Below are positions 44,804-50,734 of a DNA stretch of 64,000 nucleotides, piece after piece; positions within the stretch are counted from its first letter, which is position 1; the number at the start of each line of letters is the position of its first letter. A program made the position numbers and the translations under genes. This DNA is from Halegenticoccus soli (lineage in GTDB: Archaea > Halobacteriota > Halobacteria > Halobacteriales > Haloferacaceae). The stretch is taken from assembly GCF_002844195.1 (NCBI RefSeq), contig NZ_PEND01000001.1, forward strand, positions 310,001 through 374,000, read 5' to 3'. The notes beneath the pieces were generated by a model. That model was not told where the DNA came from and made no database searches. It saw only the letters and a list, made by a program, of their open reading frames with translations.

Positions 44804-45226
44804 GTGCGGGACGTGTTCCATCGCGCCGCGCGGAACCGCCTTCGTTGGGTCGTCGTGGGCTGTCTCGCCGTCGGACTCCTCGTCGCGTCGGTTATCTCAT
44901 CCCCCGCCGGCGCGGCGACCGGCGGTCCCCTCGGGCTCGTCGGACTGGACAAGTGGCTTCACGCGCTCGGCTACGGCGCGCTCGCGGCGGCGATCGCCGC
45001 CGCCGGATCCGGCCGCGGACCGCGTGCCGCCCTCCTGGCGGCGCTGGCCGCCCTCTGCTACGGCGTCGCCGTCGAAGCGGTCCAGGCGTTCGTCCCGGCG
45101 CGGCGGGTCGACGCGGCGGACGTCGTCGCCAACGGCGTCGGCGCCGTCGTCGGCGCGACCCTCGTCGATCGGGCGGTGCCGGCCGTCCGCCGGACGCTCG
45201 TCAGGGCACGGCGAGGTCGGCCGTGA
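44804..45226 (+). CDS. VanZ-like membrane protein
   Basis: About 140 aa with four helices: LRWVVVGCLAVGLLVASVIS, the LDKWLHALGYGALAAAIAAA helix holding the family's DKxxH-type motif, AALLAALAALCYGVAVEAVQ and DVVANGVGAVVGATLVDR. The VanZ family is named for a teicoplanin-resistance protein; the role in archaea is unknown. GTG start with TATA-like box upstream. Its end overlaps the convergent lipoprotein gene by 26 bp. Confidence 0.78.
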   Translation: MRDVFHRAARNRLRWVVVGCLAVGLLVASVISSPAGAATGGPLGLVGLDKWLHALGYGALAAAIAAAGSGRGPRAALLAALAALCYGVAVEAVQAFVPARRVDAADVVANGVGAVVGATLVDRAVPAVRRTLVRARRGRP

Positions 45227-46286
45227 CCCTCCCGCCGGGCGCGATCACGATCCACACCGGACCCACCGGCGGGCAGGTCATCCAGCGGTAGACGGTCTCC
45301 GGGCCGGCCGCCGTCCCGAGCGACAGCGTGTACGGACCCGACCGGCGAAACAGCGTCGGATCGCGGCGCGACTCGCCCGGACCGAGGCGGTACCGGCGGA
45401 CGGCGGTCGCCCCGCCCGTTTCGAACCGCACCGCGAGCGCGTGCGGCCGGTCGTCGTCGTTCACTAGGACGCCGACCGCGTGGTCGCCGCCGCAACCGAC
45501 GTCGATCCGGCCGCGCCGAACCGTGACGAAAAGCTCCGTGTCGACCTCGCACCACCTGCCCCGCGCCCGATCGCCGCCGCTCTCGGCCGCGACGGTCGCC
45601 GCGCCGCGGCGCTCTCCCACCGGCAGGACGAGCCTCGCCCCCGCGGGCAGGTCGTACCGGTACCGGAGGCGGTGCTCGGGTCCGTCGACGCGGAGCCGGA
45701 CCGATCGCGGGACCGAATCGCGGTTTTCGACGCGGAGCGTCGGCTGGTACCGCACCGACGCCGTCTCGGCTTCCGTCGGGAATCCGACCGCCCGTCCGCC
45801 CCGCGAGACCGGCGGACAGTCCGGCTGGCAGCGGACGACGGGGACGAACCGGACGCCCGCGCCGACGGCGATTTCGAGGTCGCTCAGCGCCCCCCCGACG
45901 CGCCACGCGTACTCCTCGCGCGGCCCCTCGTGTCGACCCGACCTGACGCTCTCGACGACGACCCGGTACTCGCCCGCGGTCCCGACGAGCGAGGGGTACT
46001 CGGCGCTCTCTCCCCGGTCGAGCGCGAGGCTGTCGACGAACACGGGGCTGTCCCCGTCGTCCACGGCGACGGTGACGTACCGCTCGTCGGGTCCGACGTT
46101 CCGGAGGACGACCCCGTGCGCCCGCCGGAGCGGTTCGCCGCCGCCCCGGTACGGTCCGGCCGTCTTCGGCGACTGTCCCCCCTCCGTCTGCCGTCCGCCG
46201 GCGGGCGATCGCGACTCCCTCGACGCCGCTCCGCACCCGGCAAGCCCGCCGAGGACGGCGAGCGCGAGCAGCCGTCGACGGTTCAT
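45201..46286 (-). CDS. Lipoprotein of unknown function, paralogue A
   Basis: A 361-aa exported protein. NRRRLLALAVLGGLAGC is a Tat-like signal ending in a lipobox Cys. The body is beta-rich with repeats of about 100 residues: DERYVTVAVDDGDSPVFVDS, then CQPDCPPVSRGGRAVGFP, then an RRGRIDVGCGGDHAVGVLVN unit and a final YTLSLGTAAGPETVYRWMTC. The second gene upstream (46704-47935) shares the YVTVAVE, CDPAC and GGAVELP segments, so the two arose by tandem duplication. Surface role likely; no enzymatic motif. The upstream ATG at 46313 is ignored because the signal starts here. Confidence 0.78.
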   Translation of the reverse strand: MNRRRLLALAVLGGLAGCGAASRESRSPAGGRQTEGGQSPKTAGPYRGGGEPLRRAHGVVLRNVGPDERYVTVAVDDGDSPVFVDSLALDRGESAEYPSLVGTAGEYRVVVESVRSGRHEGPREEYAWRVGGALSDLEIAVGAGVRFVPVVRCQPDCPPVSRGGRAVGFPTEAETASVRYQPTLRVENRDSVPRSVRLRVDGPEHRLRYRYDLPAGARLVLPVGERRGAATVAAESGGDRARGRWCEVDTELFVTVRRGRIDVGCGGDHAVGVLVNDDDRPHALAVRFETGGATAVRRYRLGPGESRRDPTLFRRSGPYTLSLGTAAGPETVYRWMTCPPVGPVWIVIAPGGRVTADLAVP

Positions 46287-46338
46287 GCGAGATAGTATCA
46301 CCCGAAGCCGCATGAACCTTGCAGGCCGGCGTCCCGGT

Positions 46339-46558
46339 AGCGTTCAGATACGCGGTTGCCGCGAGGAGTTCCGCCAGGGACCACCAGAAAGCCCCCGGCC
46401 GGGTCGACTCCCGCGGCTCGCTGCGCGCGGTCGCTCCCGGCGGTCGCTCACGTGCTTGCGTCGCCGGGGGTCGCCGACCCGCCCCCGCCCTTTCAATCCA
46501 CCAGGCTGACGGCTGAGCGACTCCACGAAACCGCCGGCGGTATCCGTCTCTGAACAGT
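46339..46558. mobile_element. Candidate short non-autonomous transposon-like element, copy 1
   Basis: A 220-bp non-coding segment starting AGCGTTCAGATA and ending CTGAACAGT, so its ends are inverted (GTTCAG...CTGAAC). It is flanked directly by 15-bp direct repeats at 46324-46338 and 46559-46573 that agree at 13 of 15 positions. Inside, 46384-46505 is very GC-rich with an imperfect inverted pair (AGAAAGCCCCCGG... and ...GCCCCCGCCCTTTC). No transposase is encoded. Copy 2 at 49327 has the same ends and layout. It fills the 417-bp gap between the two lipoprotein paralogues; nothing else is seen there. Confidence 0.55.
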
Positions 46559-46703
46559 GCCCCGCGTCCCGGTCCCGACGTCGACGATCCTCGCGCCGGC
46601 CCCTCGACAGTCAAGCCGCCGGCGCGACGATCTCTCGCCCGTCACACCGCCGGCGCGGTGATCCGCTGCCCACCGAACCGCCGCTCCCTCCGCCGCCCGC
46701 CGA

Positions 46704-47935
46704 TCACCCGCCGGCCGTCGGTTCCCCCGCGGGCGTCTCCGCCTTCGCGCTCGCTTCCGTCGATTCCGCCGACGCGGTCCGCGTCGACGGACCCGGCTCT
46801 ATCTCCGACGCGTTCGACGCCTTCGACGCGATCCGGGCCCCACCCGAGCCGAGCACGAGCGTGCCGTTCGGCTCGACGGAAAAGCGGAGGGGGTCGGGCG
46901 GGGGACACAGCGTCCAGTCGCCGGTGACGCGCTCGCCCGCGTCGAGTTCGGCGGCGACGCGGTAGCGGCCGCCCGAGCGGGGGAGGCGGACGTCCGGAGA
47001 GCGGGTCGTCCGCGGCGGAAGGCCGAACGCCCGCTCGACCGCGACCTCCCCGTCGACGTCGACTCGCACCCGCAGGCGGTGTTCGCGGTCGTCGCGGTTG
47101 CCGACGGCCTCGATCCGGGGGCGGTCGGCGCGTCCCCGGGACCCGTCGCACGTCGGGCGAACCTCGTCCGTTCCGACGTCGAAAAACAGCACGCCCTCCT
47201 CGGGAACGTGCCACTCGTAGTCCCGCTCGTCGCCGCCGTACGCCACCGAGAGGTCGAACGTCGCCTCGGCCCGGGCGACCGGGACGGCGAGGCGCACCTC
47301 GGGGGCACCTCGTAGCGGTAGTCGACGAGCGTCCGCTTGCCGGTGCGGACGGCGAGGGCGACCGACCGCGGCGCTTCGGCGCGGTTCGCGAACACGACCC
47401 CGGACGTGCCGTGTCGCCGACCGTCCGCCCCGTCCTCGAACGGCAGTTCGACGGCCCCGCCGGACGCCCGGATCGGCCGACACGCCGGATCGCAGAGGAC
47501 GTGCTGTTCGACGTGGATCTCGTCGTCGATCCCGACGAAAAGCGGGCGCGACTCGGGACCGACGACCCACTGGAAGGCCCGGCGCGCCCCGCTGTCGGTG
47601 TCAACGACGACGGGGTACAGCCCGATCTTCGCGACGAGCCCCCCGTAGGTCCGCTCTTCGCCCGCCTCGACGGTTCCGTTGTCGTAGAGGATCGTCCGCC
47701 CGTCCTCGGTCTCGACCGCGACGGTCACGTATCGCTCGCGGTCGGTCGCGTTGTGCACGGAGAGCCCGAGCGGCCGATCGATATTTTCGTCCGGGTCGTC
47801 CGAGCGGTACGGCAGGGAGACGGGTTCCGGGGTCGCGGTCGGCGTTCCGGTCGCTTCCCTCTCCCCGTCGAGCATTCGCGTCGAACAGCCGGCGAGGCCG
47901 ACTGTCGCGGCGGCCAGCAGGGCGCGACGGCGCAT
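46704..47935 (-). pseudogene. Lipoprotein paralogue B, disrupted by a single frameshift
   Basis: The first part, from the ATG at 47935, encodes RRRALLAAATVGLAGC (Tat-like signal and lipobox) and the beta body to TLVDYRYEVPP. The homologous frame then continues as PEVRLAVPVARAEATFDLS to the TGA at 46704. The frames join at a run of five G (47301-47305, C on the coding strand); one extra base there would restore a 410-aa protein aligned along its whole length with paralogue A. Without it the product is a 378-aa hybrid with an arginine/serine-rich nonsense C-terminus. It could be a sequencing error in the homopolymer or a real, recent mutation. Confidence 0.78.
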
Positions 47936-47999
47936 GGACGTTCGTTTCTCCCGGACGAGAAAAAGATCGCGCCGACCGAATCGGCACGTCCCGCACCTT

Positions 48000-49259
48000 T
48001 CAGCTCTCGGACCGCAGGAACCGACGGCCGGTCTCCGCGAGTACCTCCCCGGCGGTGAGGACCTCCGACCAGGCGATCGTCTCGTCCGGAAAGTGCGCCT
48101 GGTCGACGGAGCCGGGGCCGAACACCACCGTCGGAATGCCGGCGGCGACGTAGTGCCTGGAGTCGGCCCCGTACGTCTCGCCCCTGGGTTCGGAGTCGGA
48201 CAACCCGCGGTCGGCCATCGCCTCGCGCAGGGCGGCGACGATCGGCTCGTCGGGCGCGATCTCGGCGGCTTCGAACTGCACCGAGAACCGCTCGAACGCG
48301 GGCGGGTGCGCCGAGAGCCACTCGCTCGCGTCGACGACGGCGTCGAGCGCGCGGGCGAACTCCGCCTCCACCTCGTCGACCGTCTCCCCCGGCGCGACCC
48401 CCAGCCGGAGTTCGGCGACGAGCGACGACGGGACGCTCGACGCCCACGATCCGGCCTCCACGGTGCCGACGTTGATCGGCCAGGGGTTGTCGAAGCGCTC
48501 GTACAGCGGGTGCGTGACCCGTTCGGCCCGCTCGGCCTCCAGGTCCGCGAACGCCGCGCGGACGCGCTCGAAGTGCGGGAGCACCGACTCCCCCCGCCAG
48601 GCTCGGGCCGCGTGGGCCGATCGACCGGTGAGGCGGAGGCGCTTCATGACGCTCCCCTCGGTCGCGATCACGGGGCGGAGTTCGGTCGGCTCGGTGACGA
48701 CGGCGGCGTCGCGCTCGAAAGGGTACGGGTTGTCCATCGCCGCCGCGGCCGCGCCGACGCCGCCGTCCTCCTCGCCGGCGACGCTCTCGACGACGATCCT
48801 CCCGTCGAGCCCCTCGGCGGTGTCCTTCAGGTGGCGCGCGGCGAAGACGCCGACGGCGGTGCCGCACTTCATGTCGGCCGCGCCGCGGGCGACGAGGTCG
48901 TCCCCCCGCCAGGTCGGCTCGAACGGGTCGCTCGTCCACAGCTCGCGGTCGGCCGGGACGACGTCGACGTGGCCGTTCAGGACGAGCGTCGGGCCCGCCT
49001 CCGGATCGCCGAACTCCAGCACCCCGCCGACGCTGGGTCGGTCGACGATCGCCTCGTCCGCCAGGTCGGCCGGGAACGACGGGTGCTCCGCGAGCCGTTC
49101 GGGATCGGCGGTCCAGACGAACGTCTCGAACCCGAGCCCCTCCAGCCGCTCGGCGAACCACTCCTGGGCCGGTCGTTCGTCACACGCCGTCGTGTCGAAC
49201 CGCAGCAACGACTCGACGAACTCCCGGAGCTCGTCCTCGTATCGGTCGGTGAATGACAT
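48000..49259 (-). CDS. M20-family metallopeptidase (ArgE/DapE/CPG2-like)
   Basis: A 419-aa cytoplasmic zinc hydrolase that cleaves amide bonds of acyl-amino acids or dipeptides. Metal ligands sit in VLNGHVDVVPADRELW (His and Asp), GAADMKCGTAV, AGEEDGGVG (Glu-Glu) and, near the C-terminus, PGSVDQAHFPDETI (His). The dimerisation domain lies between about residues 185 and 300. The exact substrate is uncertain. It is divergent from the PotD-like gene, with copy 2 of the short element in the spacer. Confidence 0.88.
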   Translation of the reverse strand: MSFTDRYEDELREFVESLLRFDTTACDERPAQEWFAERLEGLGFETFVWTADPERLAEHPSFPADLADEAIVDRPSVGGVLEFGDPEAGPTLVLNGHVDVVPADRELWTSDPFEPTWRGDDLVARGAADMKCGTAVGVFAARHLKDTAEGLDGRIVVESVAGEEDGGVGAAAAAMDNPYPFERDAAVVTEPTELRPVIATEGSVMKRLRLTGRSAHAARAWRGESVLPHFERVRAAFADLEAERAERVTHPLYERFDNPWPINVGTVEAGSWASSVPSSLVAELRLGVAPGETVDEVEAEFARALDAVVDASEWLSAHPPAFERFSVQFEAAEIAPDEPIVAALREAMADRGLSDSEPRGETYGADSRHYVAAGIPTVVFGPGSVDQAHFPDETIAWSEVLTAGEVLAETGRRFLRSES

Positions 49260-49326
49260 CAGTGGCAGAATCTCTGTCCCCTGATCCGCCCAACGGCATA
49301 ATAAACGTGCCGTCCTCCCGAACGGC

Positions 49327-49527
49327 AGTGTTCAGATAGGCGATTGCAGGCCGGACACCCGACGCGGGGTGGGAGTGACCGGGACCGCCGTCTCGACGAC
49401 GGCCGACGACGAAAGGACCGCAGGATGGCGTCCGAGGACCGCAGCGAGTCGCCCGAGTCGAGACGGCGGGGGCGTTCGAGGAGGTCTCTGTCTCGCTGTC
49501 GACTCCAACCCTCTGAGCTGAACAGTA
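49327..49527. mobile_element. Candidate short non-autonomous transposon-like element, copy 2
   Basis: A 201-bp non-coding segment starting AGTGTTCAGATAGGCG and ending CTGAACAGTA. It is flanked with no gap by a perfect 13-bp direct repeat, CCTCCCGAACGGC, at 49314-49326 and 49528-49540. Both ends match copy 1 at 46339: the left 22 bp agree at 18 positions. It contains no open frame I can support. It lies in the spacer between the divergent M20 peptidase and PotD-like genes, and its right end is 64 bp from the pot operon TATA box. The rest of the 362-bp spacer holds only that promoter. Confidence 0.6.
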
Positions 49528-49590
49528 CCTCCCGAACGGCGTCGAAACGACCGCGAAGGACGAGTCTCGAACGCCGACGGATTTGAGGAA

Positions 49591-49600
49591 GTTATTTATC
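49591..49600 (+). promoter_or_regulatory. Promoter of the polyamine-type importer operon
   Basis: GTTATTTATC is a strong TATA-like box, 22-31 nt before the GTG at 49622. The spacing implies a leaderless transcript and supports that GTG as the start. Confidence 0.6.
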
Positions 49601-49621
49601 ACACTACTTGAAAGAGTCCCC

Positions 49622-50734
49622 GTGACACTCGATATCAATCGACGGAACGTGCTCAAGGCGACCGCCGGGCTGAGCGCGGCCGGGCTCACCGGTACGGCCG
49701 GCTGCCTCGGCGGCGGGAGCGGCGGCTCTTCGCGGGCTCCGACGGACGTCACGGAGTGGCCGCCGGAGGACCTCGAAGGGAACCTCAACCTGTGGAACTG
49801 GTACGACGACTGGGCCGAGTACGCCAAAGAGGAGTTCGGCAACGAGTTCGGCGTCACCGTCACGAACAGCGGCTACTCCTCGCCGGACCAGTGGTACGCG
49901 AAGCTCCAGTCGGGGAACAGCGAGATCGACAACATCGCCGCGACGACGAACTGGGTCGAGCGATCCATCGAGAACGACTTCCTCCACGAACTACCCGTGG
50001 ACATCATGCCGGCGTGGGAGAACATCACGGACCGCGTCAAGGACGTCAGCTCCTACCAGAAGGACGGTAAAACGTACGCCGTCCCCGAATCGCTGGTGCT
50101 GTACCCCCTGACGTACAACGAGGAGTACTTCGACGAGGAACCGCGCTCGTGGGACGTCCTCTGGGACGAGGCGCACAAGGACAGGATCGTGATGTGGGAC
50201 AACAGCACGGTTTCGTGTCAGATCGCGGCGCTGTACACCGGTCAGGACCCCATCGAGCCCGACGATTTCGGCGAGATCGAGGAGGTGCTCAAACAGCAGA
50301 AGCCCCTGCTCAAGACCTACTGGGGCGACTACCAGCAGGGGATGAGCCTGTTCGTCAACGAGGAGGCCGTCGCCGGCCCGCTCACCATGGGGCGGACGTA
50401 CACCGCCCGGTTCGGCGAGGGCGCGCCGGTCAACTACACCGCGCCCGACGAGGGGGCGATGTACACGAGCGACCTGTTCGTCATCCCCAAGGGCGCGCCG
50501 AACCCGATCGCCAGCCTCCAGTTCACGAACTGGGCTTCGGAGAAGAAGCACGCGACGAAGCTGTTCGAGACGATGGGGTACATGCCCGCCGTGGACATCG
50601 GCAGCGAGCTCTCCGAGGAGGACCGAACGTTCACCGAGTGGCCAGACAGCTGGAACCTGGTCTTCTCGGCGACCCTCTCCGACGAAGTCCGCTCGAAGTA
50701 CGACGAGATCTGGACCGCGGTCAAGGCCGCCTAG
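49622..50734 (+). CDS. Spermidine/putrescine-type ABC transporter substrate-binding lipoprotein (PotD-like)
   Basis: About 370 aa. A Tat lipoprotein signal RRNVLKATAGLSAAGLTGTA is followed by Gly-Cys and a Gly/Ser linker. The body is the SBP_bac_8 fold (NLNLWNWYDDWAEYAKEEFG, SWDVLWDEAHKDRIVMWDNS). First gene of a four-gene operon whose ATPase, PotB-type and PotC-type permeases follow without gaps. A polyamine ligand is inferred from operon layout; related systems also carry thiamine or iron. The GTG was chosen from the leaderless promoter position and signal length. Confidence 0.88.
   Translation: MTLDINRRNVLKATAGLSAAGLTGTAGCLGGGSGGSSRAPTDVTEWPPEDLEGNLNLWNWYDDWAEYAKEEFGNEFGVTVTNSGYSSPDQWYAKLQSGNSEIDNIAATTNWVERSIENDFLHELPVDIMPAWENITDRVKDVSSYQKDGKTYAVPESLVLYPLTYNEEYFDEEPRSWDVLWDEAHKDRIVMWDNSTVSCQIAALYTGQDPIEPDDFGEIEEVLKQQKPLLKTYWGDYQQGMSLFVNEEAVAGPLTMGRTYTARFGEGAPVNYTAPDEGAMYTSDLFVIPKGAPNPIASLQFTNWASEKKHATKLFETMGYMPAVDIGSELSEEDRTFTEWPDSWNLVFSATLSDEVRSKYDEIWTAVKAA

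Follow-up and report, generated by a model that had tools for sequence, protein, structure and literature searches.

Insertion sequences of the IS6 family in archaea are characterized by target-site duplications (TSDs) of mostly 8 bp, with 9 bp for ISH15 (PMC6807381), and the reviews count only two IS6-family MITEs in ISfinder, MITEHarch3 and MITEBth2 (227 and 336 bp; PMC6807381, PMC7986276). The SMR-A repeats of Haloquadratum walsbyi (HqIRS42, 43 and 55) are ∼110 bp long, end in inverted repeats and occur in high copy number inside other mobile elements, with no TSD (PMC3119063). The window analysed here, a stretch of 64,000 nucleotides from Halegenticoccus soli, contains two elements that are transposase-less transposons, and both enclose an imperfect palindrome of ∼110 bp, GAAAGCCC...CTTTCAGTCC (the core), which lies in opposite orientations in the two copies. 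The features, with core scores from the covariance model (CM R1), are as follows.

46327..46335, left TSD of copy 1, CGGCGTCCC, 8/9 match to the right repeat
46336..46561, plus strand, copy 1, IS6-type MITE of 226 bp, GGTAGCGTTCAGATACGC...CTCTGAACAGTGCC, with ends common to ∼11 genomic copies
46387..46499, plus strand, core of copy 1, GAAAG...CTTTCAATCC, CM R1 82.3 bits, E 1.8e-19, itself one of the 42 sequences used to build CM R1
46562..46570, right TSD of copy 1, CCGCGTCCC, 8/9 match to CGGCGTCCC
49316..49323, left TSD of copy 2, TCCCGAAC, 8/8
49324..49529, plus strand, copy 2, IS6-type MITE of 206 bp, GGCAGTGTTCAGATAGGC...GCTGAACAGTACC, with the shared ends and absent from the orthologous intergenic region of Halegenticoccus tardaugens
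49372..49477, minus strand (opposite to that of the shell), core of copy 2, CM R1 97.7 bits, E 1.5e-23
49530..49537, right TSD of copy 2, TCCCGAAC, 8/8

The letters that an earlier note on this DNA quoted for the two elements were found where it had placed them, and the inverted ends and the direct repeats beside them are real and, as a family, far above chance. A search of the whole genome yields ∼11 bounded copies, including copies 1 and 2; the left end as query finds nine close and several looser copies. With the two full elements as queries, the search recovers near full-length homologues at 93–94% identity (C5:64547, 93% over copy 1; C1:479100, 94% over copy 2), and further homologues at C4:38964, C1:425545, C1:595592, C2:187858, C6:174841, C8:21778 and C4:253570. 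The 11 bounded copies all start with GGY (GAT in one) and finish with RCC, and as these bases are part of the element, the borders shift outward by 3 bp on each side; the boundaries 46339–46558 and 49327–49527 given earlier are 3 bp short on each side. The corrected ends read GGYAGTGTTCAGATA...CTGAACAGTRCC, the start also being written GGYAGTGTTCAGATANGC. Family members span 104–229 bp without coding capacity for a transposase, the ORFs that cross the elements are long and overlap one another, as is usual in high-G+C DNA, and no transposase remnant was seen inside the elements. Copies 1 and 2 are collinear only at their ends.

With the corrected ends, the directly abutting direct repeats described earlier are retained, whereas their length of 13–15 bp is not, as the element's own CC and GGC/GGT recur by chance in the flank. 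The actual length of 8–9 bp falls within the range of haloarchaeal IS6 elements, contrary to the suggestion that these duplications are longer than those of most archaeal families. A 9-bp TSD (≥8/9) is present in 6 of the 11 own copies and an exact 8-bp TSD in copy 2, giving 7/11 in total, whereas none of 110 mismatched pairings of a left flank with the right flank of another copy gave a TSD at the same level. Copies of similar interior and length occupy separate sites, each with its own TSD (L001, L004, L012, L013 and L019). The proposal that copy 2 is the younger is at best hinted at by its perfect 8-bp TSD, as the TSDs of the core-less copies L012 and L013 are equally perfect.

Loci without the element were sought in the same genus. 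In H. tardaugens, the closest named relative found, the intergenic region between the peptidase and potD-like genes lacks copy 2, though the region has diverged. The stretch around copy 1 has no counterpart there; it is ∼2 kb long and also contains a second lipoprotein-like gene (45201–46313 of the window). In one other genome of the genus (G001), the sequences on either side of other copies, once joined, align without an intervening element, the flank match not being exact at every junction. At the L004 locus the flanks are contiguous and roughly 45 bp are missing from the left flank as well, at L019 the element is absent and the left flank match reaches to within 2 bp of it, and at L013 and L006 the joined flanks align without the element; for L012 and L003 the left flank alone was found. 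The element is thus absent at several G001 loci, and the assignment of the two copies to a non-autonomous, MITE-like family, as first proposed, is borne out by the many copies, shared terminal inverted repeats (TIRs), target duplications and same-genus loci without the element. As MITEs, the elements are ordinary in kind.

Two observations concern the neighbourhood. A lipoprotein-like gene on the minus strand (from 47935) apparently loses its frame at 47279–47320, where H. tardaugens (L161) has one extra base, indicating a frameshift or a sequencing error. In the interval 49260–49640 of the window, copy 2 has a peptidase gene on the minus strand to one side and an operon for a spermidine/putrescine-type ABC transporter on the plus strand to the other, a position from which it may affect either neighbouring promoter. 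No cargo function is evident for the elements.

A search for an autonomous partner covered 30 IS6-family transposase loci (PF13610), with matches in 24 of 40 haloarchaeal genomes. A group of IS6 elements of ∼697 bp with ends GGYRGTGTTCAGATAAGC and 8-bp TSDs (L135, L145, L158 and L137/L159) matches the left end of the MITEs over about 15–23 bp and the right end over about 12 bp. Alignment of GGYAGTGTTCAGATA of the MITEs with GGYRGTGTTCAGATAAG of the IS6 elements illustrates terminal inverted repeats held in common with autonomous insertion sequences. The TSDs measure 9 bp in most own copies and 8 bp in the IS6 elements examined here, and other genomes contain MITEs of this type whose TSDs match at 9/9 (L238), 8/8 (L097), 7/8 (L236) and 8/8 (L280, which has two cores). 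As judged from sequence, the MITEs are probably moved by an IS6-type enzyme. Within the H. soli genome, a search with the TIR pattern found no insertion sequence with matching ends, and the sole PF13610 match (C5:398345), which ends in GGCACTGTCTAG, was rejected as the partner.

We examined the core in an alignment of 42 units, in which 27 base pairs were scored. At these positions 95.1% of the cells are paired, compared with 76.3% in shuffled and 36–47% in slid alignments, and double changes occur at 21 of the pairs, amounting to 201 cells, whereas single-sided changes are confined to 6 cells. G-U pairs account for 8 of 1134 cells (0.7%) and A-C for 16 of 1134, whereas a small control of 25 tRNA genes from the same loci has 28 G-U in 551 (5.1%; p about 3e-8 versus the core). 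The near-absence of G-U, which bears on the cause indirectly, together with the strong covariation points to arms that are kept complementary at the level of DNA rather than RNA. Folded as single-stranded DNA, the core of copy 2 is significantly stable against its shuffles (z −3.06), and that of copy 1 modestly better than its own (z −1.28). Two stretches, CTCGCTGCG and GTGCTTRCGTCG, are conserved and unpaired.

BLAST finds the core in 33–35 of 60 genomes, and the covariance model detects it in 55 of the 79 relatives searched, with 47 or at least 48 matches each in nine genomes. It has no match in Rfam at the gathering threshold and none in the open-access papers searched, including a search by sequence string. 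A phage origin was rejected, as copy 1 has no match among 50,697 phage records. In four genomes (G003, G022, G030 and G042) the core lies inside longer repeats with different edges. The longer repeat of G030 and G003 (L367–L386), in which CAACACCGT precedes the core and CTCCCCAGCCGACTC... comes after it, along with a second palindrome whose end lies near GCGCCACCG, has no obvious TIRs and is reminiscent of PATE architecture. Elsewhere (L287, L309, L325 and L335), cores form head-to-head inverted pairs ∼30–50 bp apart, a REPIN-like architecture. In 40 core loci from relatives other than G068, IS6-type ends occur in few or none; the relatives scanned for ends were G003, G014, G016, G017, G021, G022, G023, G030, G033, G042, G059, G066 and G084. 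In G068, such ends surround roughly half of the cores examined, whether single or paired, with a TSD as well in just 1 of those 20. The scan for ends discriminates weakly (36/60 in real versus 17/60 in reversed sequence), and ends were counted as support only with a TSD.

Core and shell also differ in their histories. Shells without a core measure 139 bp (L003 and L012) or 104 bp (L013 and L006); they retain remnants of the outer arms, their breakpoints differ, and the short direct repeats found there are consistent with an origin by deletion. The 80-bp inner core is identical in copy 1 and C5:64547 and recurs inverted in C4:38964 at 79/80, bounded exactly by CGGGTCG and CGACCCG, whereas the shells of these three differ at 13–23 of ∼147 positions (9–16%; Fisher p 0.0004–0.005). 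The pair L002/L004 shows the reverse pattern, with 104/105 identity in the shell and 90/100 in the core. The core appears to have been exchanged, and even flipped, between elements, and these differing histories, along with cores in contexts other than IS6, indicate a module that is separable from this type of MITE.

How the copies arose may be read in more than one way. Chance matches in DNA of 70% G+C might be suspected behind the repeats and ends, as 9-mers are by themselves not rare when one mismatch is allowed, but the genome-wide family, the near full-length homologues and the empty mismatched-flank control refute such an origin, to which we assign practically no probability. The elements might also be what is left of a single, degraded IS6 element, rather than a family that transposed as MITEs, which would accommodate their IS6-type ends, one of which is similar, too, to AAGCTGATTC, a subterminal sequence of IS6 elements; such a history is very improbable given the copy-specific TSDs at different sites and elements free of any visible transposase remnant. 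The core could instead be the gene of a structured non-coding RNA, or a cis-regulatory RNA, carried by the MITE, in keeping with covariation over 27 pairs and with the conserved unpaired CTCGCTGCG and GTGCTTRCGTCG. The scarcity of G-U on either strand (GU 8 and AC 16) against the tRNA level, the fact that the core can point either way within the shell, with inversion in one copy, and the lack of an Rfam match make an RNA improbable, if somewhat less so than the remnant.

A more serious contender is a core that moves on its own as a cassette, akin to SMR-A, and enters MITE shells at a preferred site and in either orientation. Shells that occur both with and without a core, near-identical cores (one of them inverted) across divergent shells, the converse case of L002/L004, the non-IS6 contexts in other genera, and the precedent of SMR-A, which targets other mobile elements, would all be expected of such a cassette. 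Against it stand the outer-arm stubs and differing breakpoints of the core-less shells, as would result from deletions, and the short direct repeats around the core, which belong to the conserved unit in other genera too; furthermore, a clean insertion of a lone core into a unique site was not found. We regard independent mobility as rather unlikely, though far more plausible than an RNA gene.

The reading we hold with good confidence is that these are IS6-type MITEs with 8–9 bp TSDs that are probably served in trans by an ISH14/15/29-type transposase and carry a palindromic core maintained as DNA. From the observed ends, duplications and element-free loci, we infer a haloarchaeal enzyme of this type that would recognise the terminal repeats of the MITEs in trans; its source is probably external to the genome or has since been lost from it. 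Insertion into intergenic DNA would then duplicate 8–9 bp of target. Once in place, the complementary arms of the core would probably form an extruded hairpin or cruciform when the DNA is replicated; deletion mediated by the arms may have given rise to the core-less shells, and flipping there, combined with recombination among copies, to the inverted and homogenised cores. More tentatively, and with less than even confidence, the core might be described as a palindromic DNA module of ∼110 bp with stems held complementary as DNA, spread across haloarchaea and exchanged, deleted or inverted as a unit between transposon shells, i.e. a transposase-free cassette on several classes of mobile element.

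The core, a covarying palindrome that many haloarchaeal genomes contain dozens of times, matters more than the MITEs that carry it, and it is unnamed within the scope of Rfam and the open-access papers searched. If its stems are maintained as DNA, the core would report naturally on the formation of hairpins or cruciforms, and on short-arm inversion and gene conversion in polyploid archaea, and would also offer a way to approach the unsolved problem of how the small mobile repeats of Haloquadratum are mobilised.

Among known systems, the MITEs stand closest to ISH14, ISH15, ISH29 and their relatives (DDE_Tnp_IS240, ∼697 bp), with which they have the terminal GGYRGTGTTCAGATA in common and whose TSDs are 8 bp long (9 bp in ISH15); unlike these, the MITEs are 104–229 bp long with no transposase gene, have mostly 9-bp TSDs and match at one end over ∼12 bp. 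To judge by its name, MITEHarch3 would be a haloarchaeal MITE of IS6 type, comparable in size class. The core in turn resembles SMR-A in its ∼110 bp, its inverted-repeat ends, its high copy number and its location inside mobile elements, as compared by description; SMR-A resides mostly in PATEs and IS605-type elements, whereas the core resides in IS6-type MITEs and other repeats. Like the bacterial REP, BIME and REPIN sequences, the core is a high-copy, extragenic, imperfect palindrome that also occurs as inverted pairs (e.g. L287, L309 and L335), from which it differs in its greater length (∼110 bp), its variable, covarying stems, its frequent location within TIR elements and the lack of a demonstrated RAYT transposase.
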